From NCBI GenBank assembly GCA_029975765.1, contig JARKOK010000156.1, forward strand, positions 1 through 52,828: 52,828 nt of DNA, in the 5' to 3' direction. This DNA comes from Aggregatilineales bacterium. Its GTDB lineage: Bacteria; Chloroflexota; Anaerolineae; Aggregatilineales; Phototrophicaceae. A program made the translations under genes and the position numbers. Of this stretch, positions 1,385-42,824 are shown one piece after another; within the stretch, counting starts at the first letter, position 1, and the number at the start of each line of letters is the position of its first letter. The notes under the pieces are model-generated. The model did not search any database. It was not told where the DNA came from and worked only from the letters and a program-made list of their open reading frames with translations.

Positions 1385-3700
1385 GTGAGGAATTCACCTG
1401 TGGACGATCCGATGCTCGACCAACTGACCGAACGCGAACAGACGATTCTGGAACGTATGTCCAGCGGCCTGTCAGATCAGCAGATCGCTGACGAACTGTT
1501 TTTGAGCCTGCACACCGTCAAATGGTACAACCGTCAGATTTACAGCAAGCTGGGAGTCAGCAGCCGGACGCAGGCCATCGCCAGCGCCCGAAACCTGCAT
1601 CTAAGCCGGCATGATGATTTGCCGCTGCCGCCTGTCTCCCGCCACAATCTCCCCGCGCCCACCACCCCCTTTATCGGGCGTGCGCAGGAGCTTGCTGATA
1701 TCAAACAGTTGCTGGACAGCGTGCGACTGCTGACACTCACCGGAACCGGGGGGACGGGCAAAACCCGTCTGGCGCTGCGGGTGGCATCGGACGTGCAGAA
1801 GGACTTCACCGGCGGGGTGTATTTTGTTGATCTGGCGCCGTTGTTCGCGCCCACCCTGGTGCCAAACGCCATCGCCACCGTGCTGGATGTCGCGCAGTCC
1901 GTCAGCCAGCCGCTGCTGGAAAGCCTGAAACACCGCCTGCGCCACCGGAAACTGCTGCTGGTGCTGGATAATTTCGAGCATCTGCTGCCGGGCGCGCCGC
2001 TGGTGTCCGAACTGCTGGCCGCCGCGCCCGATTTAAAGGTGCTGGTCACCAGCCGCGAACCGCTGCACCTGTACGGCGAACACGAATACATCGTGCCCCC
2101 GCTCGAACTGCCCGACCCGGAGATGATGGATTTGCACCGGTTGGCGGCGTGCGAGTCGACCGCTCTGTTCATGCAGCAGGCGCGGGCGGTGCGGGCGGAT
2201 TTTGAACTGACCGCCGACAATGCGCTGGATATCGCGCAGATCTGCGTCCGGCTGGATGGGCTGCCGTTGGCGATTGAACTGGCAGCGGCCCGTATCAAAT
2301 TTTTAACCCCTCGCCTGCTGCTGACGCGGTTGAGCAGCCGGCTGAATACCCTCACCGGCGGCGCGCAGGATTTGCCCGCCCGCCAGCAAACGCTGCGCAG
2401 TACGATTGAGTGGAGCTATAACCTGCTGGATGCGGGCGAGAAACAACTGTTTGTGTGCCTGGCGGTGTTTCAGGGCGGGTGTTCGCTGGAAGCGATAGCG
2501 GCGGTTTGTGGCGACGGTCTGCCGCTGGATGTCTTTGATGGACTGGAGTCGCTGGTCAACAAGAATCTGGTGCGGCAGGTCGAGTCGCCGGGCGGCGAAC
2601 CGCGTTTTATGATGCTGGAAACGCTTCATGAATATGCCTGGGAATGTATCCGGGCAGGTAATGAGGCGGAAACGCTGCGGCGGCGGCACGCGGCTTTTTT
2701 TGTCGAACTGGCCGAACGCGCGGAACCGGAACTGCGGCGGTCACATCAGATGGAATGGTTTCGTCTGCTGGAAACCGAACACGAGAATCTGCAAACGGCT
2801 CTCCGCTGGTCGCTGGATGAGGGCGACAAAACCTTTGGCGCGCGCATAGCGGGAGCGTTATGCCTGTTCTGGTACGCTTACGGGTATCACCTTGAAGGCC
2901 GGCACTGGATACAACAACTGCTTGAACACCTGGATGCTGTAGACAGCCGGTATCGCGCAAAACTGTTGTTCGCTGCCGGGCACATCATTGTCTTGTACGA
3001 TCTTGAGGGAGCGAAATCGTATTTTGCCCGGTCGCTCCACCTCGCGCGTGAGTCCGGCGATCCGGTGGCTACAGCCTGGGCGCTCATTCTGCTGGGGTAC
3101 TCGATGATGTTTGATGTGGAAGCCGCGCTCGCGACGACGGAAGAAGGGCTGGCGCTGTTCCGGGACCTGGATCACAGACCCGGTATTGCCCAGGCGCTCA
3201 ATATCGTCGGTGAGATCACGCGCGCCACCGGGGATGACGAGCGAGCCAGGCGCGCTTATGAAGAATGTCTGGTGATTGCCCAGGAGACGGGTGAAAAGCG
3301 GCGGATTCGTTTCTTACTCGACAATCTCTCGTTCCTGGCGCAGCACGCTGGCGATTACAGCTATGCCCAGGAACTGAACGATCAGTCCTTACGGATTGCG
3401 CTGGAGATGAACAACCGGCTGGACATCGCCGATGTCCTGGCGGGGCGTGCTGGTATCCTCGGCTTGACCGGCCACCCCGAACAGGCGGCGCGTCTGTTTG
3501 GCGTGTGGCAGGCGACCCTGGAAAGTCTGGGCGCTGTTTTCCAACCGTCCAACAAAGCGGAGTATGACCGGGCTATCGCCGCTGTGCGCGCTCAGCTTGA
3601 TAACGCGACCTTCGAGGCTGCCTGGCTGACGGGCAGAGCCATGTCGCTGGAGGAAGCCGTCGCGCTGACACTCGAACAGGGGTTTGGCTCCGCCATCTGA
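1385..3700 (+). CDS. LuxR-type HTH / NB-ARC-like ATPase / TPR transcriptional regulator
   Basis: 771-residue predicted one-protein regulator. Residues 14-66 form a LuxR/GerE helix-turn-helix (LTEREQTILERMSSG, then QQIADELFLSLHTVKWYNRQIYSK). Residues 95-340 are a STAND/NB-ARC-like ATPase with Walker A GTGGTGKT (120-127) and Walker B LLLVLDNFEHL (about 190-202). The rest is helical TPR-like sequence, rich in paired Ala/Leu helices, which probably senses a ligand or partner. The DNA-binding domain is at the N-terminus, opposite to MalT/LAL regulators; this order is common in Chloroflexota. The GTG start at 1385 is used here; GTG 1400 or ATG 1412 are alternatives. The target is unknown; the SPFH/fusion pair downstream is a candidate by position only. 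Confidence 0.9.
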   Translation: MRNSPVDDPMLDQLTEREQTILERMSSGLSDQQIADELFLSLHTVKWYNRQIYSKLGVSSRTQAIASARNLHLSRHDDLPLPPVSRHNLPAPTTPFIGRAQELADIKQLLDSVRLLTLTGTGGTGKTRLALRVASDVQKDFTGGVYFVDLAPLFAPTLVPNAIATVLDVAQSVSQPLLESLKHRLRHRKLLLVLDNFEHLLPGAPLVSELLAAAPDLKVLVTSREPLHLYGEHEYIVPPLELPDPEMMDLHRLAACESTALFMQQARAVRADFELTADNALDIAQICVRLDGLPLAIELAAARIKFLTPRLLLTRLSSRLNTLTGGAQDLPARQQTLRSTIEWSYNLLDAGEKQLFVCLAVFQGGCSLEAIAAVCGDGLPLDVFDGLESLVNKNLVRQVESPGGEPRFMMLETLHEYAWECIRAGNEAETLRRRHAAFFVELAERAEPELRRSHQMEWFRLLETEHENLQTALRWSLDEGDKTFGARIAGALCLFWYAYGYHLEGRHWIQQLLEHLDAVDSRYRAKLLFAAGHIIVLYDLEGAKSYFARSLHLARESGDPVATAWALILLGYSMMFDVEAALATTEEGLALFRDLDHRPGIAQALNIVGEITRATGDDERARRAYEECLVIAQETGEKRRIRFLLDNLSFLAQHAGDYSYAQELNDQSLRIALEMNNRLDIADVLAGRAGILGLTGHPEQAARLFGVWQATLESLGAVFQPSNKAEYDRAIAAVRAQLDNATFEAAWLTGRAMSLEEAVALTLEQGFGSAI

Positions 3701-3825
3701 CGCGCCCATCCAGACTACCAGACCGGACGTGACCACCCGCCGCAGGGCCGGTCGCGTCCACCATTTTCTGGATGCATCCCCTTGCCGAAAATGCCTTAAT
3801 CAAAACGCCTGCCTTTTTTTCACAT

Positions 3826-3855
3826 TTGCCAAAGCATACTGGCGCACCTTATGGT
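3826..3855 (+). promoter_or_regulatory. weak candidate sigma-70 promoter before the SPFH gene
   Basis: TTGCCA (3826-3831) and TATGGT (3850-3855) are separated by 18 bases and lie about 60 bases before the chosen start at 3919. The -10 matches only 4 of 6 consensus bases, so this is tentative. The rest of the 218-base gap shows nothing else. Confidence 0.3.
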
Positions 3856-3918
3856 ACTCTATACACTCCAGGGTACTCAATTGACAGCCAGCTACGCTGC
3901 TGGTGGAGGTATGACAGT

Positions 3919-4887
3919 ATGGAAATTGTCTTGGGCGTTGTCGGCATTCTGGTCGCAGGGCTGCTGTTAGCTGTGGGATTTGAATACCGCGCGCGCCAGC
4001 CAGACCTCATTGTATTATATGAAGCAGATGGTCAGATCGGCATCCGAAAAGGACCGCTTTATCCGCGTCACTTCAGTCTGCCCCTGAAACGCACGACCTA
4101 TCCGCTCCAGTTAACGGTTGAGGCCGCCGCAGTAGGTAATCTACAGGTACGGGTTAAGCTGATCGGCGCGGCAGCGCCCTCCATTGACCATATCCAGTCC
4201 CTCATCCGGGTCGGAGGGTGGGATAGCGATGCCGTCAAACGGGCTGTTGAGCAGGTGCGGATTCTGCTGCAAGGGCTGGTCAAGGAATACACCGAACAAT
4301 CCGAGATTCATGCGATTTCCTCGCCAGCCATCCTCAATCACCTGAATGCGCAGATGCCACTGATTAAGGAACGATTCGGCATTGATCTGATCACGCTGGC
4401 TGTTGAGTCACTCGAACCCACCGACCCGGAAGTTGCCAATGCTCTGAGCCAGCAGGAAGAGGCCCGCCTGCTCGAACAAACCGAGCGTCTGAGTCACCAG
4501 GCACGGATCATTGCCGCCAGGTCCCGGTATCAGGCCGATGAAGAGATTGCGGCGATGGAACATGCCCTGGAGATGAAACGCGCCGAATTGCGGAAAATTC
4601 AGTTCCAGAGTGAGGCTGAGTTGGCCCGCCAGCGCATTGAGGATGAATTGGCCCGCAGCCGCCTGCGCCTGGCTTTTGAGAAAGAGGAACTGGAAGTCCT
4701 GAGCAGAAGCCCGGAACTGCTGATGCTGACCCCCCAGGCCGCTCAACTGGCCGAGGCAAGCCAGAGCCTGAAGAACGCCCGGACGGTCATCTCACTGACA
4801 CCGCAGGAACTCGCCAGCGGTTCAGCCCTGATCACCTTATTCCGCAGTCTGCTTGAAAAAGAACTCACGACAAAAGACAAAGCATAG
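3919..4887 (+). CDS. membrane-anchored SPFH/band 7 domain protein
   Basis: 322 residues. An N-terminal membrane helix (residues 2-20, VLGVVGILVAGLLLAVGF) is followed by an SPFH-like beta/alpha region (about 30-180). A long charged coiled coil (about 185-285, repeated QEEARLLEQTERLS / ELARQRIEDELARSR-type heptads) follows. SPFH proteins usually oligomerise on membranes as scaffolds. The start was chosen at ATG 3919 because GGTGGAGGT sits 8 bases upstream; a longer reading frame from 3772 has no such site. The stop is 18 bases before the giant fusion gene, so the two are probably one transcript and may work at the same membrane site. This is the first of two SPFH genes in the window. Confidence 0.75.
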   Translation: MEIVLGVVGILVAGLLLAVGFEYRARQPDLIVLYEADGQIGIRKGPLYPRHFSLPLKRTTYPLQLTVEAAAVGNLQVRVKLIGAAAPSIDHIQSLIRVGGWDSDAVKRAVEQVRILLQGLVKEYTEQSEIHAISSPAILNHLNAQMPLIKERFGIDLITLAVESLEPTDPEVANALSQQEEARLLEQTERLSHQARIIAARSRYQADEEIAAMEHALEMKRAELRKIQFQSEAELARQRIEDELARSRLRLAFEKEELEVLSRSPELLMLTPQAAQLAEASQSLKNARTVISLTPQELASGSALITLFRSLLEKELTTKDKA

Positions 4888-4905: not shown

Positions 4906-7900
4906 ATGTCCCGTTCTTCTGACTCAATGGCTCTTTTCCGCCTGAAAGCGGTTCGGGCGGCGCGTGTTTCCGAGGTCAGCGAAACTACCGCCGCTGCGCC
5001 GGTTCCAGATGAAGACCGGATTAACTTTCATATTGGGAATCCGCTGCAGGATGCGCGCCTGTCGTCGGCTTTCCTGCGCCTGGCACTCGGTCTGGACATT
5101 CATCAGGAGGAGTTGAGCGAGACCGACCTCGCCGGCCTGATAGACCACCTGGGCTGGGAAGCGGTGGACAAACCTAAGCTCGAATTTCTGATTCGCGCCA
5201 TTCGGAGAAGTGTGCCCTATACCCCGCGCGGCGGGTATTCCACCAAAAATCCCCATGTACTGGTCAATCATTTCTATGCCTGGTTAGAAAACCAGCAGGA
5301 ATCGCTGCACTATGACAATGGCGAACGTTCCGGCAGGCGCGAAGTCATCCTGTCTTCCGGTGGGATGCAGGAAACCCTGCGCGTGCTGTTATTCACGCTG
5401 TCGGGGCGGTTAGCGCATCTGCCGGCGCGTATTCTGTGTTACAACTACGACCTCGCGCCGTCCTCGAAAGCGATCCGTAACCTGTTGTTCGAAGACCTGC
5501 CGCCGGATGAGCCGGCCGCCTATGATCGTATTGTTGAGGTCCTGGCCGGGCAGCCGCAGCACCCGACCTTTATGATTCTTGGCACGGTGCCGGATGAAGT
5601 TACCCGGCGCAAACTGCGTAAACTGAGTACCGATCAGCCCTTATTCTTCATCGAAGCGAATAACGCGTCGAATCATCTTTCGCTCGCGCGTGAAGCGCGG
5701 CTGGTGCAGGTGGTCATCCGCTTACTCACGCCGGCCATTTTCTCGCCCCGGTTGCGCGACCTGTCCACCGTGTTTGTCGCCGGGAATGCCGAGTTTCTGC
5801 GGGCGATTGAAAGCGTCCACTTTAACTTAAAGGGGACACCCTCCGCCTCCGAAATGGAGTTCCTCGCCTACCTGCTTGAGCAGCCGCTGATCACAGCGCC
5901 AAAGAACAATCACTCAACGATGCCGCAGGCGCGGCCAGCGGCAGATGGTCTGGTGCTGGGCAGTATGACCCTGACCGCGCTGCCGCACCTGATGAACCGC
6001 GCCGAGCGCCACCTGGAATCCCTGCTCAGCGCGCATACCGAGTTGTTGAGTCATTCGCTCAAAACCCTGGACGACAAGACCGCCTTATATTCACAGCGAA
6101 TTCAGGGGGTATGGAAGTCACCTGTTCCTGACGAGTTCGCCAATCTTGAGGTACGGGAACTTCTGGATCGGCTCATCACTAATATTGACCGGAAAGCTGC
6201 CATCCAGGCGCTCGGACGCAGTTTTTTGAGCGCCTTTGTGAAGCACCAGCCCCAGTACGAGTTGGAATCCTGTGTGGTGGTCAGCGGGTCATCCCGTACC
6301 GCGCTGGGTATTCTCGGTTTTCATTGTGGAATCACGGAAGTCGTGGTGCCCGATCTGAGCTGGTCTTACGAGCAGTGTTTCCCGCAGATTCATGTCGTGC
6401 CGCTCATGGAGTCCCTGAAACTGGACGCCGATGCGATGATCCAGAAAGCGGAAGACCTGTGCCGCCGTGATCCGTCGTGGCGCCGGCGCGGCGCGATGGT
6501 CATCAACAATCCCCACAATGCGACCGGACGGGTTTTCGACGAAGCGGCGATTCAGAAGCTGGTCATTTACTGTCTGGAGAACAATATCTATTTCATAGAT
6601 GACCTGGCCTACCAGAATATGATGCCGGCCAATGATCTGCCTGAAATCAAAACGCTCCGCCAGATTACGTCGGAACTGGTATCGCGGGGACTCGCCGACG
6701 GGCATCATGCCGACCGGGTGATTTCCGTCCACAGTGTCTCGAAAACCGACTGCTCGGCAGGTTCCCGGCTGGCGGTGGTGGAAATCCGTGATGCTGAACT
6801 GCGGCGGCGCTTCGAAGCGGTTAACGCGCATATCCAGCCGAATATCGCTGCCATCCTGATCAGTTACCTGTTTTATCGCAGCAGCGTGCGCGCCGTGCGT
6901 ACCTACTGGCATCTGCGTAATGCCATCCTGGAGGAACGGTCTCGCGCCTTGCTGACGGCTGTAGAAAATCTTCCCCAGGAGCGTAATCCCTTTGGTTTGG
7001 AGATTATCCCCCCCGCCGGAAGTATGTATCCCCTGCTACATGTGAAGACCTTACCGGCAGGGCTGTCACTGGATTGGCTGTCGTCCTCGCTGGCGCGGCG
7101 CGGGATCGGAATGCTTCCCCTGGCGACGTTCGCCCGCACCGAAAAAGGGTTTGAAACCGGGCGCACCACCTTCCGGCTGACGCTGGGCGGTGTGGATGAC
7201 GCCGGCGTTCTGCTGGCAAAGACGCGCCGCCTGCTGATTGACCTCAACCGCCTGATCGCCAGTGAAGACGCGCGTTATAACCGTAAAACACCCCGATTCC
7301 GAACGGCCTCCCGCGCGAACAACCGCCTTCCCGAACTGTCCCGGTCAATGGATCGCATCGGCGAGCAGGTTTTGCAGGCATGTGTCAGCAGCCGGTACTA
7401 CCGCCGTCTCCTGTCCACGCCCCTGCTGGATGCCGAAAAGGAACGGCGTGATTTTGTGGAACGGTACGCCCCGGAACGGCTGGCGATATTCCGTACTCGT
7501 TTGCTGGATCGTGCGCTCATCAGCGATGAATTGATGCAGCAGGCTCTGGATAACGGCGGCAAACGGCTGGCTGAAAAATTGCAGCGGGAATTCATGAAGG
7601 ATTCCCTTCAGCGCCGCCAGGAGTTGTTTAAGCTGCGCTCCTATGACCGCACCGTTCATCCCACTCAGATGTATTCGCTGGAAGCCGAATCCGCCTTTGA
7701 TGCCATTCTGACCCGGCTCATTGCCCGGCAGCCCGCCGCCCCGGCGCTCATCGAACGGGCCGCGCAGGAACTCCTGAAAGAGTACCTCGGTCTGAATGTT
7801 GCCGTTTCGTCGCAGCAGGAAGCCCGCGAAATCCTGCTCGACCTTAATGCCCTGACCGCTGGTGAACAGTATGCCGGTCTGTTCACCGATACCACGCTGA

Positions 7901-10521
7901 ATCCTTTCCTCTCCTTCTGGAGCGACTGGGATGGCAGCAACCGGCCTTCAGGCCAGGGGCACTACCTCGTCGCGGCGGTGGTCATGGAAAATGTCTCCCG
8001 TATGGCCCGCATTCTGAACATCCTGCGGCAGGTTGATCCGGGCGTTACGGTGAGTTCCGATCTGCTGTCAGAACTGGATCAGCTTGATCAGCAAAACCAG
8101 CGTTTTACACAGCTTTTGAGTACGATCACCCAACTGACGCACCAACTGGAGCAGCGTTATCGCAGTATCCTGCCCTTTTCCCTGGATACCACGCCCTGGC
8201 AGCGGATGGCGGCCCGCCTCCATCTGCGCCGCGACCCCGCCAGAGTGTTGTGGCAGCACAACGACCGCTACGAACAGCGGATGCTTGAACTGCGGCAGGA
8301 ACGGCGGCAGACACTCGAATACTACTTCGCGCTGAACAAACAGCTTCGCAAACAACTGTACACCCTGATCCCGGCGATCCAGACGAACCGGACGGCTGAA
8401 CCGCTGCTGCGGGCAGTGGTGGGCTACCAGGATATTTTGCAGCGGGTAGTGATTACGCCGCGTATCCAGGAATCCATGATTACGGCGCGGGATCCGTTCG
8501 CGGTGGATACGACGGTCTACAACATGCACGAAATCAACACCATCTCTGGCAAATATGGCAATCCGGGCATGGCGCTGGCGATGCAGATCAGTCTATCCAC
8601 TAAGCCGGAGACCCTGATCGCGCTGGATCGGAAAATGCACACCCAACTGGAGCAGGCCCGGCGCGAGCACCCGTCGTCCGATCTGCCGTCCATCTGGCTT
8701 ATTCCCCTGTTTGAAAGCGAAGACGCAGTGGGCAGTATCGGGCCATACCTGGATCAGATTTGGGATTATGCCAGCCAGAGCCGCCATACCACCCAGTCGG
8801 TGCAGGACCGTTTTGCCGAGATCATCACCGAGGTTTTTGTCGCCGGTTCGGACCTGAGCCAGCAGGTCAGTCAGGCTAAAAGCGCGTATCTGTACCAGAA
8901 GGCCAAGTACGATGTGCAGTCGTGGCTGGTGGCGCATGATACCGCAGAACCTGTGCGTATCAAGCTGGGCAGCGGCGAACCCATGCAGCGCCAGGGTGGG
9001 TATTACTCACGGGTGGCCGGCGTTCATGGTTTCCTGAACGCCGCAGCGAACCAGCAGCGGTTTTCCGAACACCTGATGCCCGCCGCGCGCAAAAGCACCG
9101 CCTATGCCGTAACGCCTTTGCAGGGGGTTTTCCTGGGGGGCGAGCTGCGAACCTTCCAGAGCAACCTGTCGGAGCAGCTACGTTTCCTGCCGGTGCATGA
9201 GTTCACCAGCCTGCTGTATCATGTCCGGGAAGCCCAGAACACCCACCGCGAAGACCTGATTCGCGCCGTTGAAACCAGCGGAGAAAGCCGCCTGATCGCG
9301 CCCGACCGGAGCCTGCGGGAACTGGAACGGCTAACCATTGGCACCCGCGAGGCGCTTTACGAGCAGTTTCTGGAAGAATTAACCGATAGTTTTCGTCACA
9401 TCCTCTACGGCAAAGAGGAAGATGTGGTCGGTATCCACATCATTTCGTATTTCATCGGCAGATCCACGCCCCAACTGCGTGACCGCCCAACCAGCCGCCA
9501 GACCGGCGGCACGGGTGCTGCCGTCGGCCAGCGCATTCTGGCGAACATCGCCGAAATCATCCCCCTGTCCAAACAGGGCAGCCTGCTGCGGGCTATCGCC
9601 CATAATCAGGCGCAGTCCGCCGTGCTGGGCGTAAACCAGCTCACCACCGGACTGTTCCGCGCTCTCGAACGCCTGGCGCAAAAGGCCTTTGCGCCCGCCG
9701 AACAGGATCGTATGATCGCGGAGCGCCTGCTGCCGCATTTGCCCATGTACGAAATCCTGAGCACCCTGCGGGTCTACCAGGATCGTACCGGGAAAATTCT
9801 GCCCTTCATCGAAACGGCGTTCCCGGCGGGCAATTCAGCCTTTGTGGCGCTGCGTGAAGATCATGACGCGATGCGGCGTTATTTGCCGCTGTTCCAGCAG
9901 GAACTGCTGCGCCGTCATGGGGTAAACGTCAGCGAGTTCTTTGTCAACGGCGTGTTTATCCCACAACTGCTGCCCACACTCCGGCCTGATCTGGCGGTGC
10001 TGCTGCAAGCAGACCTGTTTAACACCGAGCTTGATGTTCTGCTGGCGCCTGTCTCCGGGAAAATAGCGGACGATTGGATCGCTGAGGTGACCCGGCTGCT
10101 CGCGGTGCCCGGCCAGATTCACTACTGGCGCTCGATGATCTGGGATGTGTTCGGTGAGTCGATCTATGAGCGGGTGCAGAGTTTTGTCGAACTGGCGACC
10201 ACGTTGTATGCCTATGGCTCCACGCAGGTCTCCCGCGTGACGCCGCCCCTGCGCGGCGATAGACTGTCGTCCCCGGTTCTGGCCGGATTTTTCCGCACGG
10301 CCCGCGCCGATGATGAGATGCGAGACTTTTTGATGGGCGCTATCGAATACCTGAGTTCATTCACCGCCGGCAGCCGTGAGATGCCGGTCAGCATCATACG
10401 CGCCATGAACGGTGTCGAACGAATCGCCCACATTGAGGAAAGCGCGCTGCCGCCGGAAAAGCAGAACTTGTTCCGGCATTGTGTTTTGCAGATCGCGCGG
10501 TTGGCCGGTGAAAATGGGTAG
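4906..10521 (+). CDS. giant fusion: PLP aminotransferase modules plus PEP carboxylase-like region
   Basis: 1871 residues in one uninterrupted frame. Residues 40-330 resemble a degenerate fold-type-I aminotransferase (IGNP at 43-46, YTPRGGY at 105-111, SSGGMQETL at 150-158) with no clear PLP lysine. Residues 430-785 are an intact-looking aminotransferase: SGSSRTAL (460-467), NNPHNATG (534-541), DDLAYQ (565-570) and SVSKTDCSAGSR with the predicted Schiff-base Lys613. Residues 820-1871 carry, in the order found in PEP carboxylase, TVHPTQ (916-921; family TAHPTE/Q with catalytic His), WSDWDGSNR (1005-1013; family GGDRDGNP), IPLFES (1266-1271), FVAGSD (1311-1316; family GYSDS) and RPTSRQTGG (1527-1535). 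The glycine-rich GRGG loop is replaced by GSGEPMQRQGG (1355-1365), so carboxylase activity is doubtful. The aminotransferase call is firm; the PEPC relation is inferred from motifs. Confidence 0.75.
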   Translation: MSRSSDSMALFRLKAVRAARVSEVSETTAAAPVPDEDRINFHIGNPLQDARLSSAFLRLALGLDIHQEELSETDLAGLIDHLGWEAVDKPKLEFLIRAIRRSVPYTPRGGYSTKNPHVLVNHFYAWLENQQESLHYDNGERSGRREVILSSGGMQETLRVLLFTLSGRLAHLPARILCYNYDLAPSSKAIRNLLFEDLPPDEPAAYDRIVEVLAGQPQHPTFMILGTVPDEVTRRKLRKLSTDQPLFFIEANNASNHLSLAREARLVQVVIRLLTPAIFSPRLRDLSTVFVAGNAEFLRAIESVHFNLKGTPSASEMEFLAYLLEQPLITAPKNNHSTMPQARPAADGLVLGSMTLTALPHLMNRAERHLESLLSAHTELLSHSLKTLDDKTALYSQRIQGVWKSPVPDEFANLEVRELLDRLITNIDRKAAIQALGRSFLSAFVKHQPQYELESCVVVSGSSRTALGILGFHCGITEVVVPDLSWSYEQCFPQIHVVPLMESLKLDADAMIQKAEDLCRRDPSWRRRGAMVINNPHNATGRVFDEAAIQKLVIYCLENNIYFIDDLAYQNMMPANDLPEIKTLRQITSELVSRGLADGHHADRVISVHSVSKTDCSAGSRLAVVEIRDAELRRRFEAVNAHIQPNIAAILISYLFYRSSVRAVRTYWHLRNAILEERSRALLTAVENLPQERNPFGLEIIPPAGSMYPLLHVKTLPAGLSLDWLSSSLARRGIGMLPLATFARTEKGFETGRTTFRLTLGGVDDAGVLLAKTRRLLIDLNRLIASEDARYNRKTPRFRTASRANNRLPELSRSMDRIGEQVLQACVSSRYYRRLLSTPLLDAEKERRDFVERYAPERLAIFRTRLLDRALISDELMQQALDNGGKRLAEKLQREFMKDSLQRRQELFKLRSYDRTVHPTQMYSLEAESAFDAILTRLIARQPAAPALIERAAQELLKEYLGLNVAVSSQQEAREILLDLNALTAGEQYAGLFTDTTLNPFLSFWSDWDGSNRPSGQGHYLVAAVVMENVSRMARILNILRQVDPGVTVSSDLLSELDQLDQQNQRFTQLLSTITQLTHQLEQRYRSILPFSLDTTPWQRMAARLHLRRDPARVLWQHNDRYEQRMLELRQERRQTLEYYFALNKQLRKQLYTLIPAIQTNRTAEPLLRAVVGYQDILQRVVITPRIQESMITARDPFAVDTTVYNMHEINTISGKYGNPGMALAMQISLSTKPETLIALDRKMHTQLEQARREHPSSDLPSIWLIPLFESEDAVGSIGPYLDQIWDYASQSRHTTQSVQDRFAEIITEVFVAGSDLSQQVSQAKSAYLYQKAKYDVQSWLVAHDTAEPVRIKLGSGEPMQRQGGYYSRVAGVHGFLNAAANQQRFSEHLMPAARKSTAYAVTPLQGVFLGGELRTFQSNLSEQLRFLPVHEFTSLLYHVREAQNTHREDLIRAVETSGESRLIAPDRSLRELERLTIGTREALYEQFLEELTDSFRHILYGKEEDVVGIHIISYFIGRSTPQLRDRPTSRQTGGTGAAVGQRILANIAEIIPLSKQGSLLRAIAHNQAQSAVLGVNQLTTGLFRALERLAQKAFAPAEQDRMIAERLLPHLPMYEILSTLRVYQDRTGKILPFIETAFPAGNSAFVALREDHDAMRRYLPLFQQELLRRHGVNVSEFFVNGVFIPQLLPTLRPDLAVLLQADLFNTELDVLLAPVSGKIADDWIAEVTRLLAVPGQIHYWRSMIWDVFGESIYERVQSFVELATTLYAYGSTQVSRVTPPLRGDRLSSPVLAGFFRTARADDEMRDFLMGAIEYLSSFTAGSREMPVSIIRAMNGVERIAHIEESALPPEKQNLFRHCVLQIARLAGENG

Positions 10522-10675: not shown

Positions 10676-12040
10676 TTAGGCTTTGCGTTTCAGATATTCG
10701 TTACGCAGCCAGATGCGCGTGATTTCCCCCGCGTCGTTCTGCTCAAACCGCGCCGTTTCCCGTGTGCCGTTGGGTTCTTTGATGGTGAAAACCGCCGGAT
10801 CGTCGGTGGGTTCCAGCACCGCTGGCGGCAGTTGCAGCCACTGCACCGAAACCACCTGTAACTGCCCGCCGCGCACGATCACCTCAATCTCACTCCAGCT
10901 GTCCACATACGTGCCGGTGAACTTCTGCCATTCGGCTTTGGCTTCCGCCGGTTTGGGGGTGTTGATCTTGATGATCTCCGGCAGCACCAGCTTGTACGCC
11001 TGCTCGACAAAGCTGTAGGGGTCGCTGCCCAGGCTGTTGGTCAGCACGATCACGCCGGCCTTGTGATCGCGGCACAGCGAAAACTGCGTCAGGTAGCCGT
11101 TGTACCCGCCGGAATGCCCGCTCATCGTCCAGTCCCCGATGCGGTAAATGCCGATTCCGGGGCCGTACCCACCCGACCAGTCCTTGTGCAGCCAGTCAAC
11201 GGTGTGCATTTCGCGCAGGGTATGCGCCTTCAGCACGGGCGTGCTGTCCATTCCCAGATGGAAGCGCATGTACTTCGCCAGATCATTAACCGACGAGGCC
11301 ATGCTGGCCGACGGCGAAAAGCCGTTGGTCGGGATGAACGGCGCGGCGTGCCGCACGCCGCTTTCATCCGGCATAAAGTAGCCGGTGGCGAGATTTGCCT
11401 CCCCGCCCGCCGGCGTCACGACGGTATCGCGCATGTCCAGCGGGTCGAGGATGTGACGCTGAATATAATCGGCCCAGCTTTCGCCGCTCACGGCTTCGAT
11501 GATGCCGCCCAGCAGGGTGTAACCCAGGTTGGAATAACCGAATTCCTGGCGCGGCGGCAGCACCGGCTTGCGCTGTTTGGTCGTGGCGACCACCTCATCC
11601 CACGACTGGAACACATGCTCCGTCCAGTGTGGTACGGTGGCATCGCGCGGCAGCCCCGACGTATGCGTGAGCAGGTGACGGATGGTGATCGCCGGCGCGT
11701 CTTCGTACCGCAGGTCGAACCAGTCCAGATATTCCGCCGCCGGGTCATCCAGCCGCAGTTTACCCGCGTCACGCAGCTGCATGACCGCCACGCCGGTGAA
11801 GGTTTTGGTGATGCTGGCGATACGAAAGCGGGTGTCCAGCGTGATCGGCGTCTGCTGTTCCATATCGGCCAGGCCGTAGCCTTTCCCCCAGATGAGGTCG
11901 CCCTGATGTACCAGCCCGACGGCCACGCCGGGCAGACGGCGCTCGCGCACCTGGTACGCCGTCCATTTATCCAGCAGCCCGATAGCAGTTGCCAGGTCAG
12001 CATGTTGTGTGACAAATTCCGTTTGCAGCGTGTTGGTCAT
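10676..12040 (-). CDS. serine hydrolase of the beta-lactamase/class C PBP family
   Basis: 454 residues. The penicillin-binding-type fold is shown by SITK (76-79, nucleophile Ser76 and Lys79), YSN (169-171, general base Tyr169) and a late HSGG motif standing for the KTG box. The C-terminal 110 residues look like the separate lipocalin-like domain often attached to this family. No signal peptide is visible, so a cytoplasmic esterase or peptidase role is as likely as a cell-wall role. The start at 12040 has AGGGG upstream (minus strand); the frame stays open to 12124 without another ribosome site. Substrate unknown. A related gene is at 36301. The 154-base gap to the fusion gene shows only a distant 7-base inverted repeat. 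Confidence 0.9.
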   Translation of the reverse strand: MTNTLQTEFVTQHADLATAIGLLDKWTAYQVRERRLPGVAVGLVHQGDLIWGKGYGLADMEQQTPITLDTRFRIASITKTFTGVAVMQLRDAGKLRLDDPAAEYLDWFDLRYEDAPAITIRHLLTHTSGLPRDATVPHWTEHVFQSWDEVVATTKQRKPVLPPRQEFGYSNLGYTLLGGIIEAVSGESWADYIQRHILDPLDMRDTVVTPAGGEANLATGYFMPDESGVRHAAPFIPTNGFSPSASMASSVNDLAKYMRFHLGMDSTPVLKAHTLREMHTVDWLHKDWSGGYGPGIGIYRIGDWTMSGHSGGYNGYLTQFSLCRDHKAGVIVLTNSLGSDPYSFVEQAYKLVLPEIIKINTPKPAEAKAEWQKFTGTYVDSWSEIEVIVRGGQLQVVSVQWLQLPPAVLEPTDDPAVFTIKEPNGTRETARFEQNDAGEITRIWLRNEYLKRKA

Positions 12041-12232
12041 AGTCTGTCCCCTTGATGAAAGCCCGACGCCTATTGTAGTGCATCCCGCCGGAATTGCCTC
12101 AGACCATTTCATCCGGTCAACCATCAGCCCTGAACGGTCTCTAGCGCGCCCGCCGCCCCCTCAATACAATACATAGGTAGAGCCGCGCCGACTCTCCCCT
12201 GTCGGTTTCTCATTTGCCAAAGGAAAACGTCC

Positions 12233-22521: not shown

Positions 22522-23601
22522 TTAGCTGCCCGGTACGGGGGTCGCTTCCGGCACGATCACATCCGGCACCGGCGGCGCGGTGAAGTTCGCGTTGGGCTGC
22601 AACAGGCTGTTGAAGTCAAACAGGAACGGGCTGTTCGACGGCACCAGCGCGATGCTCACGTTGTCACTCAGGTTCTGCACGTACAGGTACTGGATCAGGC
22701 TGGGGTTGGCGGCGATCTGCTCGCTCACCAGCCGCAGCGCCTCGGCTTCGGCCTGCGCCTGAAGGACGATGGACTGGGCATCACCCTGAGCGCGGGCGAT
22801 GCGGGCGTCACGTTCACCTTCGGCCTGGGCGCGAAGCTGGTTGGCCTCGTTTTCGCGCTGGCGAATCTGAAGCTGCGCGCGCTGGGCTTCCTGGTCGGCA
22901 ATCTGCTTCTGCTCAATCGCCTGGCGGAACTGGTCAGAGAACGAGATGTCGCGTACCAGCAGGTCAGTCAGTGTCAGACCTTCTTCTTCAAACCGTGCAG
23001 CGATTCGTTCCTGCATCATGTCTTCCATCTGGGCACGCCCTTCGCCGTAGATGTCCTCAGCGGGATATCCGGCGACTACCTCACGTACCAGCCCGCGTAC
23101 TGTCGGGCGAACGAAATTTTCCTGATAACCCGACTGCCAGCGTAAATGTACTATAGCCACCTTCTCCGGGTTGATAGCGTACAACACGGTGACGTCCAGC
23201 GTTACTTCCTGGCCGTCGCGGGTTCGGGCCGAAACAGCATCATTGCCACCCCCGCGATCTTCTCCTTCGCCAGCCATCGTATACTGCTGCTGGTTGATTG
23301 GATATAGGTAGTAGTTCTGCATCACTGGTATCACGACCGACGTACCGGCGCGGCGCGGTTCTTCCAGCGTACCTGTGACTGTATTGACTATGACCCCGAC
23401 CTGCGTCGGTTCAACGATCAGCACACCCTGCGCGATCAGGCTGAGCAGCAGCCCGGCCACCAGACCGACCACCGCCAGCAGCACGCCGCTGCGGGCCGGA
23501 CGCCCCTGCGAGGCAGCCATCACCGCCAGCCCGGCGCCGGCCAGAAAAACGAGAAAGCCCACCAGGGCCAGTGTCCCAATTATGGCGCTAATGCCACCCA
23601 T
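22522..23601 (-). CDS. prohibitin/SPFH-family membrane protein
   Basis: 359 residues. Two hydrophobic helices (about 5-30 and 40-62) are followed by a prohibitin-type SPFH domain (about 62-235; VGVIVNTVTGTLEEPRRAGTS, then VTVLYAINPEKV and EGLTLTDLLVRDISFS). An alanine/glutamate coiled coil (about 235-300) and a Pro-rich tail ending PEATPVPGS follow. The family builds ring-like membrane scaffolds and can restrain membrane proteases. An extended -10 promoter lies 64 bases upstream on the minus strand. No partner NfeD or protease gene is adjacent. Confidence 0.92.
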   Translation of the reverse strand: MGGISAIIGTLALVGFLVFLAGAGLAVMAASQGRPARSGVLLAVVGLVAGLLLSLIAQGVLIVEPTQVGVIVNTVTGTLEEPRRAGTSVVIPVMQNYYLYPINQQQYTMAGEGEDRGGGNDAVSARTRDGQEVTLDVTVLYAINPEKVAIVHLRWQSGYQENFVRPTVRGLVREVVAGYPAEDIYGEGRAQMEDMMQERIAARFEEEGLTLTDLLVRDISFSDQFRQAIEQKQIADQEAQRAQLQIRQRENEANQLRAQAEGERDARIARAQGDAQSIVLQAQAEAEALRLVSEQIAANPSLIQYLYVQNLSDNVSIALVPSNSPFLFDFNSLLQPNANFTAPPVPDVIVPEATPVPGS

Positions 23602-40524: not shown

Positions 40525-42711
40525 TTACCCCGTCGGCAGCGTGCCGAAGAAGTAATACAGCAGAATGTCCCGCACGAGGGGGGCAGCTTCTTCTGACCCC
40601 TGACCGGCATTTTCGACCAGGACAGCCACCGCGACTTCCGGGTTGTCCATCGGGGCATAGGCGGCGAACCAGGCATGAGAGATCGCGTCGGGACTGCTGC
40701 CGTCCTGCGCCGTGCCGGTTTTGCCGCACACGCCTTTGGCCTGGAGCGCGTCGTAGGGGCGGAACAGCCATTCCGCCGTACCGGCCCGTGACCGCGTGAC
40801 GGCGCACATCCCCTCATGCAGCATGTCGAATACTTCGGGCTTGATGTCCAACTGTTCCATCGGGTCCGGCGTCAGGGTGTAACTGGGCGCTTCACCCAGG
40901 ATGCCTACCTGCTGCACCAACTGCGGGCGCAGCAGCGTGCCGCGATTGGCAATCGCCGCGAACCAGCGGGTCACCTGAAGCGGCGTCACCTGCACCTCAC
41001 CCTGTCCGATGGCGATGTTGACTTCATCGGAGAAGTTCCAGGCGTAACCCAGTTTCTCCAGCTTCCATTCCGGGGTGGGGATAAAACCGGGGGATTCGGT
41101 CAGATCGCGCAGGCCGGTGGGGCCGCCAAAACCAACGCGGCGCATGTACTCCGGCAGCAGGCCGGGCTGGTGCATGAACATCTGGTAGCCCACTTCGTAA
41201 AAGTACGGGTTGCAGCTCTGGGTGATCGCGCCGGGCAGCGTCAGCGTGCCGTGTCCATTATTCCAGTCGTAGCGCACAATATCGCGCGACCAGCGCCCGA
41301 CGCAGGTATATCGCTGGTCGAGGGTGTACACGCCGCTGTCCGCCACCGCTGTCGCGGATACGGTTTTCATCACCGAACCCAGGGGGTACAGGCCGTCAGC
41401 CGCGCGGTTCAATTGCGGGCGGCGCGGGTCGGCCTGCACTTCGGCCACAATGCGGGCGGCTTCGGCGCGGCCCAGCATCGAGAAGGGCGTGAAGGCGTTG
41501 GCGTCGTAGGTCGGGTAGCTGACCATCGCCAGAATTTCGCCGGTGCGAACGTTCATGACCACCGCCGCCGCCCCTTTGGAATTTGACCACCAGCTTTTCT
41601 GGGCATAGGCATCGGTGATGATTTTGGTGACCGCCGTTTGCAGCTCCGAATCGAGCGTCAGCCAGACGCTTTCCGCCGGTTTCGACGGGCTGCGCGCGAT
41701 CTCTCGCAGCACGCCGCCGCCGGTCGAAACGATCAGCAGCTTACCGCCGGGCTGGCCGCGCAGGGTTGCGTCCCAGCTTCTTTCGATGCCGCTTTTGCCT
41801 AAAATCGTATCCTGGCTGAAACCGGCAGCCCGCACACTCGGCACATCCGCTTCATCTGGATAACCCACGTTGCCCAGAATATGCGGCGCGAGCGTACCGT
41901 TTTCATAACGGCGGGTGGGCTGGCTGGCGAACTGCGCCGCGCAGACCTGTTCCAGCGTGGTGTGGCTCTGCTCGTAAGCGGCGGCCTCCATCGTGCCAAA
42001 CTGGATCAGCCAGTCGGGCGCGGACTCGTCATAAATCTTTTGCAGCACGTCGGCGCTTCGACCCAGCACCGGCACAAGCAGCGGCAGACAGTCTCCCCAC
42101 GAGGGAATCTTCTGTTTCACCGCGCTGACAATCACGGCGCGCCCGTTCTGATCGGCCAGAATGACGCCGTTCCGGTCATAGATGTTGGCGCGGCTGGGCG
42201 CGCTGACTTCCAGCCGCAGCCGGCCACCGCTGCCCATCTCCGTAAAAATATCCCCCGGCGACCACGCCACACGCCAGTCACCGGCGCGGTCATCCATAAT
42301 CAGCCGGAGTTGGCGATCCTGATCGGTGAACTGGCCGACCAGATGGGTATCAAAGGTCATGTTGTACGCAAACACGGCGATGTTGTCGCGTTCGCGGTAC
42401 AGTGTCACCGGCGTATAGTCCAGGCTGCTGAGCGTCATTTCGGTCTGCGCCGCCTCATACAGGGCGACGAAGGTTTCAAGGGGGGTAGCTTCCTGGCTGT
42501 TAAAGGTGATGAGGGCGTACATGGCGGGCAGGTCGCCGGCTTTCCAGGCTTCGAGGAACTTACGCGCCACGCGCTCGGCGTCTTCCGGCGGGTGGGTCGG
42601 CGCGGGGTTCAACACCGCCAGCGTCGGCAGCGTTTCAACACTGGCCGATGGGGGCGGGCTGCACGCCGTTATCACAGCCGCGATGAGGATACAGCAGACA
42701 AACCTGAACAC
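40525..42711 (-). CDS. penicillin-binding protein 2-like transpeptidase with MecA-type N-terminal domain, lipoprotein
   Basis: 728 residues. Cross-links peptidoglycan outside the membrane. A lipobox (AAVITAC) anchors it by lipid in place of a membrane helix. An NTF2-like MecA_N domain (about 40-165), a PBP dimer domain (about 170-345) and a transpeptidase domain (350-728) follow. The three active-site motifs are SVMK (446-449), SCN (499-501) and KTGT (664-667). The domain order resembles the low-affinity PBPs of Gram-positives such as PBP2a. GTG 42711 follows GGAG by 7 bases; TTG 42726 is the other possible start. The domain layout alone does not prove beta-lactam resistance. Confidence 0.93.
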   Translation of the reverse strand: MFRFVCCILIAAVITACSPPPSASVETLPTLAVLNPAPTHPPEDAERVARKFLEAWKAGDLPAMYALITFNSQEATPLETFVALYEAAQTEMTLSSLDYTPVTLYRERDNIAVFAYNMTFDTHLVGQFTDQDRQLRLIMDDRAGDWRVAWSPGDIFTEMGSGGRLRLEVSAPSRANIYDRNGVILADQNGRAVIVSAVKQKIPSWGDCLPLLVPVLGRSADVLQKIYDESAPDWLIQFGTMEAAAYEQSHTTLEQVCAAQFASQPTRRYENGTLAPHILGNVGYPDEADVPSVRAAGFSQDTILGKSGIERSWDATLRGQPGGKLLIVSTGGGVLREIARSPSKPAESVWLTLDSELQTAVTKIITDAYAQKSWWSNSKGAAAVVMNVRTGEILAMVSYPTYDANAFTPFSMLGRAEAARIVAEVQADPRRPQLNRAADGLYPLGSVMKTVSATAVADSGVYTLDQRYTCVGRWSRDIVRYDWNNGHGTLTLPGAITQSCNPYFYEVGYQMFMHQPGLLPEYMRRVGFGGPTGLRDLTESPGFIPTPEWKLEKLGYAWNFSDEVNIAIGQGEVQVTPLQVTRWFAAIANRGTLLRPQLVQQVGILGEAPSYTLTPDPMEQLDIKPEVFDMLHEGMCAVTRSRAGTAEWLFRPYDALQAKGVCGKTGTAQDGSSPDAISHAWFAAYAPMDNPEVAVAVLVENAGQGSEEAAPLVRDILLYYFFGTLPTG

Positions 42712-42824
42712 AGCGGTACTCCACAACCCGTGCCAGCGAAACCCTCACACTACTGGTATTGTAGTCCCACCAGGGCGAATCAGCGAATGAGAAAAGCGCG
42801 AGAAGAACAGGTTTTGACCATTTG

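Follow-up and report, generated by a model that had tools for sequence, protein, structure and literature searches.

The phosphoenolpyruvate (PEP)–oxaloacetate node is among the best studied in metabolism; when the product of PEP carboxylase (PEPC) is taken up by an oxaloacetate aminotransferase, aspartate results. The best-known bacterial partner of SPFH/Band_7 proteins (stomatin, flotillin, prohibitin; PF01145) is NfeD. The main text of a 2020 review counts four types of PEPC, of which the archaeal type is a 55–60 kDa monomer (PMC8100219, section 9); the word ‘fusion’ is absent from that main text.

Here we describe a locus in which these three themes meet. Within the window (the whole stretch of 52,828 nucleotides that was analysed), a single stop-free reading frame on the forward strand encodes an N-terminal domain, an aminotransferase and a PEPC-like half in one polypeptide, immediately downstream of an SPFH-like gene (Table 1). 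Each part has a known fold. What is undescribed, as far as our literature searches go, is the way in which they are combined, the subtype of PEPC and the strict pairing with SPFH, in that the sources searched yielded no paper on such a fusion or on such a pairing.

Table 1. Features of the fusion gene and of the gene upstream of it (window coordinates)
Feature	Position	Strand	Basis or comment
SPFH/Band_7-like membrane protein: N-terminal hydrophobic helix, SPFH-like domain, charged, probably coiled-coil helix	3916..4887	+	ORF 3772-4887; likely start M at 3916
Fusion gene, 1871 aa: N-domain, aminotransferase, PEPC-like half	4906..10521	+	ORF call and translation
N-domain, residues 1-340; suspected degenerate aminotransferase large domain, no catalytic Lys; invariant Y105/G109/G110	4906..5925	+	AF2 strand order
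Fold-type I aminotransferase domain, residues 405-790 (PF00155 over 442-765)	6118..7275	+	Pfam, Foldseek, hhalign
Lys613, PLP Schiff-base lysine	6742..6744	+	50/50 proteins
PEPC-like half, residues 805-1871	7318..10518	+	Structure model, Foldseek, conservation, hhalign
TVHPTQ (H918), PEPC catalytic-His motif equivalent	7651..7668	+	Invariant 50/50; hhalign to canonical TAHPTE
SDWDG (D1007, D1009, G1010 invariant), counterpart of archaeal-type DFEGK and canonical GGDRDGN	7921..7935	+	Canonical pairing approximate (hhalign); archaeal pairing by eye
VITPRI (T1184, R1186), matches archaeal-type VTPRI	8449..8466	+	Conservation, hhalign
PLFE (E1270), metal-ligand Glu equivalent	8704..8715	+	Conservation, hhalign to canonical and archaeal-type
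AGSD (D1316), metal-ligand Asp equivalent	8842..8853	+	Conservation, hhalign to canonical and archaeal-type
GSGEPMQRQGG (R1362), counterpart of canonical GRGGxxGRGGG and archaeal-type GCGSLPFRG	8968..9000	+	Conservation, canonical hhalign; archaeal pairing by eye
RTFQS, matches archaeal-type TFQS	9148..9162	+	Conservation, hhalign
RDRP (R1525, R1527)	9478..9489	+	Conservation, profile comparisons
LRAI (R1562), counterpart of archaeal-type PRAI and canonical LRAIPW	9586..9597	+	Conservation, archaeal hhalign; canonical pairing by eye
C-terminal Gly1871 (..ENG), like ..NTG end of canonical PEPC	10516..10518	+	Terminal G in 50/50

An intact aminotransferase in a single reading frame

A sequence-only reading of this DNA had proposed the fusion of an intact aminotransferase with a PEPC-like half, on the strength of short motifs in both. 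Every one of these is present in the translation: NNPHNATG (residues 534–541), DDLAYQ (565–570) and K613 in the aminotransferase, and the five PEPC-like motifs TVHPTQ (916–921), WSDWDG (1005–1010), PLFES (1267–1271), VAGSD (1312–1316) and RPTSRQTGG (1527–1535). The fusion itself is backed by fold, by profile comparison and by conservation in an alignment of 50 proteins, the most distant of which is 32% identical to the window protein; 190 columns are invariant. Relatives that span the full length come from Chloroflexota, Ignavibacteriota/Bacteroidota and Neomarinimicrobiota and, at loci whose contigs allow it, complete proteins mostly have 1800–1900 residues (shortest, 1714).

That two genes had been joined by a sequencing or assembly error was a concern, given a source genome of 594 contigs with 6.65% contamination, and we now give this explanation practically no credence. 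Whole-length copies, 71–78% identical, are found in five of 60 other genomes searched, all of them from two further families of its order (one copy spans two contigs); since such relatives exist, and since the same architecture in the same frame recurs in dozens of independent genomes from four phyla, a joining error is excluded. SppA, encoded on the same contig, is moreover nearest to the same genus; on this count, which concerns one gene only, we also reject contamination of the assembly. In three genomes of the Bacteroidota-class sample (G898:C54, G963:C108 and G1047:C152) the fusion gene is interrupted inside its PEPC half, within one contig; these breaks may be frameshifts, split genes or assembly errors.

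Residues 442–765 are a class I/II aminotransferase: the PF00155 match has an E-value of 2.4e-19 and scores 70.2 bits against a cut-off of 19.7. The predicted structure of the N-terminal half (AF2; mean pLDDT 84.1) retrieved fold-type I PLP enzymes in Foldseek, with ACC synthase first (1.6e-13) and then many aminotransferases, and hhalign related the domain to three PF00155 proteins of its own genome with a probability of 97%. N538, D566, Y569, K613, R621 and R757 are invariant in all 50 aligned proteins; by their spacing we take them to be the equivalents of N194, D222, Y225, K258, R266 and R386 of aspartate aminotransferase, K613 being the PLP lysine and R757 the substrate arginine. The catalytic core is thus as complete as had been proposed, and as it is in other class I/II aminotransferases, from which the fusion differs by its fused state, by an extra domain ahead of the aminotransferase and by a PF00155 match that begins only at profile position 52, leaving the first 51 positions unmatched. 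The best family matches are mixed, C-S lyases among them, and do not settle the substrate.

The extra N-domain has no relevant sequence match in Pfam or the PDB. In the AF2 model its seven strands (147–150, 174–179, 193–197, 221–225, 246–250, 270–274 and 289–292) are ordered as in the live aminotransferase domain (456–460, 478–482, 494–498, 529–534, 562–566, 605–610 and 622–627); when the two are aligned by strands, the place of the lysine, at about residue 278, is occupied by mostly hydrophobic residues across the aligned proteins. Identification of the N-domain as an aminotransferase by sequence was rejected: against a reference of three of the eight own-genome proteins tried, its profile scores lay inside 30 shuffled controls (21.2 against a maximum of 25.2; 23.1 against a maximum of 23.9). 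Y105, G109 and G110 are invariant in the 50 proteins. In ordinary aminotransferases, a tyrosine motif crosses the dimer interface; we infer that Y105/G109/G110 fall in the part of PF00155 that is absent from the live domain, where they would resemble this interface motif. We hypothesize, on the basis of the model, that an aminotransferase half, now dead, survives as the N-domain, where it would complete the live active site within one chain and may thereby replace the partner subunit of a homodimer with a cross-subunit active site. This domain, the upstream SPFH-like gene and the archaeal-like character of the altered motifs (see below) are additions to the sequence-only reading.

Kinship of the C-terminal half with PEPC

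The fold of the C-terminal half was assessed from a predicted structure (pLDDT 78.5, pTM 0.79). All 17 Foldseek matches at E≤1e-3 are PEPCs, comprising ten plant chains (best 1.1e-8) and seven archaeal-type 3odm chains (best 3.1e-6); one of the 17, 3zge, is presumably a PEPC, its title not naming the enzyme. The next protein follows at E 0.12, so that only PEPCs lie below E 0.1. The TM-scores of these matches are low (0.25–0.50; rmsd 11–22 Å) and several active-site loops of the model have a pLDDT under 50; strands are predicted at the motif positions. On this model, the C-terminal 1070 residues have the TIM-barrel fold of PEPC.

Profile databases tell another story. The search for PF00311 and PF14010, which that reading had proposed as a check, gave no match over cut-off among 31 fusion members: PF00311 matched none and PF14010 a single one, at E 0.17. 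The window protein matches neither, and Pfam and NCBIfam together gave nothing useful on its C-terminal half. Searches of the PDB (phmmer, hmmsearch) were likewise not significant, 3odm standing at the top of both profile searches with E 0.76 and 3.3. Since Pfam is blind to this half, reliance on it alone would have led us wrongly to dismiss the kinship.

Profile–profile comparisons supported the kinship. A profile of 35 members of the C-terminal half scored 42.8 in hhalign against 14 canonical PEPCs (maximum of 29 block shuffles and one reversal, 37.1), at a probability of only 21%. Against archaeal-type PEPC, represented by 3odm and one further archaeal sequence, the score was 50.4 (E 2.6e-5, probability 75%), above all 40 block-shuffled controls (maximum 35.8); against 3odm alone it was 43.1 (E 1.8e-4, probability 49%), again above 40 of 40 (maximum 38.3). 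It could still be argued that this half is unrelated to PEPC and that the order of its motifs is due to chance, in view of the absence of a Pfam match in the window protein, the poor hmmsearch values for 3odm and the low probability against canonical PEPC. The Foldseek matches, the hhalign scores above controls and the strands predicted where the motifs lie all speak against that explanation, which we consider very improbable.

H918, E1270, D1316, R1362, R1527, R1562 and the terminal G1871 are present in 50 of 50 proteins. We take the first six to be the equivalents of H138, E506, D543, R587, R699 and R713 of Escherichia coli PEPC, that is, the catalytic histidine, two metal ligands and the phosphate/PEP arginines. 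The register for the His, Glu, Asp and R1362 comes from the canonical hhalign alignment, that for R1527 from the profile comparisons and that for R1562 from the archaeal alignment and inspection by eye. The canonical alignment has HPT, PLFE, SD and the glycine loop in place, and pairs LRAI otherwise than in our by-eye match to LRAIPW; the archaeal alignment pairs TPRI, IPLxE, A-x-SD, TFQS, RDR and RAI, places HP elsewhere and sets the glycine loop two residues off, so the archaeal pairs for HP, DxxG and the glycine loop are by eye. Of the canonical PEPCs, 13 of 14 end in G; in the remaining one, L063, the profile match stopped at position 886.

The sequence-only reading had noted that GRGG and GGDRDGN are altered and had raised the worry that this half is a scaffold. 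The alteration stands: the canonical GGDRDGN and GRGGxxGRGGGP loops are replaced by SDWDGS and GSGEPMQRQGG, and the canonical-loop lysine (SDSxKD) and first arginine (GRGG) are absent. The worry is weakened, because archaeal-type PEPC has similar alternatives (IDFEGK and GCGSLPFRG) and because none of the 50 aligned proteins varies in its residues at these positions; judged by these sequences, the altered motifs appear to resemble the archaeal form.

The likeness to archaeal-type PEPC (PF14010, 3odm) extends to TPRI, IPL(F/V)E, A(R/G)SD, TFQS, RDR and RAI in the hhalign register and, by eye, to HP, D-x-(E/D)-G and a G-x-G loop with its arginine; both lack GRGG and GGDRDGN. The fusion half is twice the size of the archaeal enzyme, with about 550 extra residues in its 1070, is joined to an aminotransferase, lies below Pfam detection and ends in a canonical-like ..NG. 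With bacterial and plant PEPC (PF00311), on the other hand, it shares fold, size, motif register and the C-terminal glycine, and differs in the GGDRDGN and GRGG loops and in the lack of any PF00311 match.

An SPFH-like partner gene and the proposed reactions

The SPFH-like gene ends 18 nt upstream of the fusion gene. A same-strand upstream homologue accompanies the fusion at 54 of 62 other loci; at 52 of these, no more than 300 nt lie between the end of the SPFH match and the start of the fusion (383 nt at L018, 651 nt at L044), and at nine the two ORFs overlap by 1–4 nt, as called from the first start. The eight loci that lack the gene also lack room for it: seven have no upstream DNA, and at L049 that DNA is the fusion’s own N-terminal half. 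The partner shares an N-terminal helix and a putative SPFH-like domain with SPFH/Band_7 proteins, from which it differs in being paired with an enzyme gene and in the weakness of its Pfam match: PF01145 matches 9 of 21 family members (best 7.5e-5) and not the window copy, and in the PDB no match is better than E 0.71. All 21 proteins have an N-terminal hydrophobic stretch (19-mer mean hydropathy 2.5–3.4); no 19-mer of the fusion protein exceeds a mean of 1.4. The upstream partner suggests a membrane placement of the fusion enzyme.

A third operon gene was sought among 34 loci and rejected, no neighbour standing at a constant place beside the pair; the only other cluster found in at least four of these loci is transporter-like by eye and occurs at seven, at varying distance. 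PADLOC matched neither protein, and we rejected a defence-system reading on that ground. Elsewhere in the window are a second, canonical Band_7/SPFH gene 12 kb from the fusion (22522-23601, reverse strand; PF01145, 4e-36); a regulator upstream of the SPFH-like gene, with N-terminal LuxR-type HTH, NTPase domain and TPRs (1385-3700, forward strand), which is not a common neighbour of the pair; a beta-lactamase-family serine hydrolase (10676-12124, reverse strand); and a penicillin-binding transpeptidase with an NTF2-like MecA_N domain (40525-42726, reverse strand; PF00905, 5.9e-57; PF05223, 2.7e-12).

We propose a two-gene module, a reading whose chances we put at about even: gene 1 would provide a single-pass SPFH-like membrane scaffold, and gene 2 a bifunctional enzyme with a PLP aminotransferase as its N-terminal half and a divergent, archaeal-like PEPC as its C-terminal half. 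The latter would most likely convert PEP and bicarbonate to oxaloacetate, which the aminotransferase, taking its amino group from glutamate, would turn into aspartate (or something closely related); the SPFH protein would keep the enzyme at the membrane, and carbon could plausibly be channelled from the PEPC half to the aminotransferase and so into aspartate. What the data show is an unbroken fusion, a C-terminal half with the fold of PEPC and its motifs in order, invariant active-site residues in both enzymes and a strictly kept gene pair; activity, substrates, channelling and physical contact with the SPFH protein we infer. That neither active site varies speaks for two working enzymes, since dead domains would scarcely have retained 190 invariant columns with both sites among them. 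Such a module points to a membrane-linked path, so far undescribed, by which central metabolism would supply an amino acid. If it exists, a widespread PEPC relative invisible to Pfam would add a new type to the family and a natural candidate for substrate channelling, and an SPFH protein with an assayable partner enzyme would offer a handle on the role of bacterial SPFH microdomains.

The fusion is an addition to, and not simply a replacement of, ordinary PEPC, as 24 of 40 genomes with the fusion carry both; we rejected replacement for this reason. The source genome has its own canonical enzyme (L009, G000:C112; 984 bits to PF00311), as do, in the Chloroflexota sample, 15 of 41 genomes including the source genome. 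All four Neomarinimicrobiota hosts, and L041 and L043, have no PF00311 match in genomes whose completeness is not given. There are 19 other PF00155 matches in the source genome, some of them partial; with these and its PEPC, aspartate supply is no obvious need, and the ordinary PEPC in this and the other hosts speaks against an anaplerotic role.

These same genomes lend weight to the idea that both halves are active in another reaction: an enolate derived from PEP, or from a similar phosphoester, would be joined to something other than bicarbonate (or the substrate only dephosphorylated), and the aminotransferase would aminate the product to a specialised amino acid or membrane-linked metabolite. 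The 550 or so residues beyond the archaeal enzyme, the two divergent active-site loops and the mixed aminotransferase matches are in keeping with it; the conservation in 50 of 50 proteins of the carboxylation His, Arg and metal-ligand equivalents and of the C-terminal Gly is not, nor is the lack of biosynthetic genes common to the surroundings of the pair. We regard this other chemistry as unlikely, albeit a serious contender. Lower still we rank the notion of a sensor or scaffold, whose domains would bind PEP and an amino or keto acid without turnover and so regulate an SPFH microdomain or the membrane: constant pairing with a membrane scaffold would suit it, as would the genome’s ordinary PEPC and its further PF00155 proteins, whereas invariance of the PLP lysine and of the metal-ligand and phosphate-binding equivalents exceeds the need of binding alone, which makes it improbable.

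Distribution and descent of the pair

When each species was represented by one genome, a scan found 42 fusion loci. Most are from Chloroflexota; of the rest, one bears the label Ignavibacteriales, another Bacteroidetes, and four are labelled Marinimicrobia/Neomarinimicrobiota. The fusion occurs in 15 of 154 genomes of its own order and in 3 of 400 of the phylum sample (own genome counted in both), in 9 of 245 genomes of the Neomarinimicrobiota phylum and in 30 of 245 from the class to which the Bacteroidetes locus belongs (centre genome counted in each); it is absent from the 16 other genomes of its own genus. Patchiness of this kind also fits an accessory function, a further point for the alternative reaction above.

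In a quick tree built without bootstrap, with family labels assigned by matching coordinates, the window fusion is nearest to two copies from another family (80%; SH-aLRT of the trio, 100), while SppA on the same contig is nearest to its own genus (74%). The pair is a patchy two-gene unit, and in this tree its window copy is nested among those of another family, a pattern that points to horizontal transfer or repeated loss. Carriage by viral contigs or plasmids was rejected, a search of these having found no relative.

There is a more far-reaching reading that we offer tentatively, the odds being somewhat against it: a fifth class of PEPC, in one polypeptide with a pseudo-dimeric aminotransferase and with a dedicated SPFH tether, would channel PEP and bicarbonate directly to aspartate at the membrane, and the two genes would pass between lineages as a unit.

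Two loci, L094 and L095 (G672 and G593), sit on very long branches of the tree and may represent distinct subfamilies; L095 has a shorter N-terminal half, in a protein of 1714 residues.
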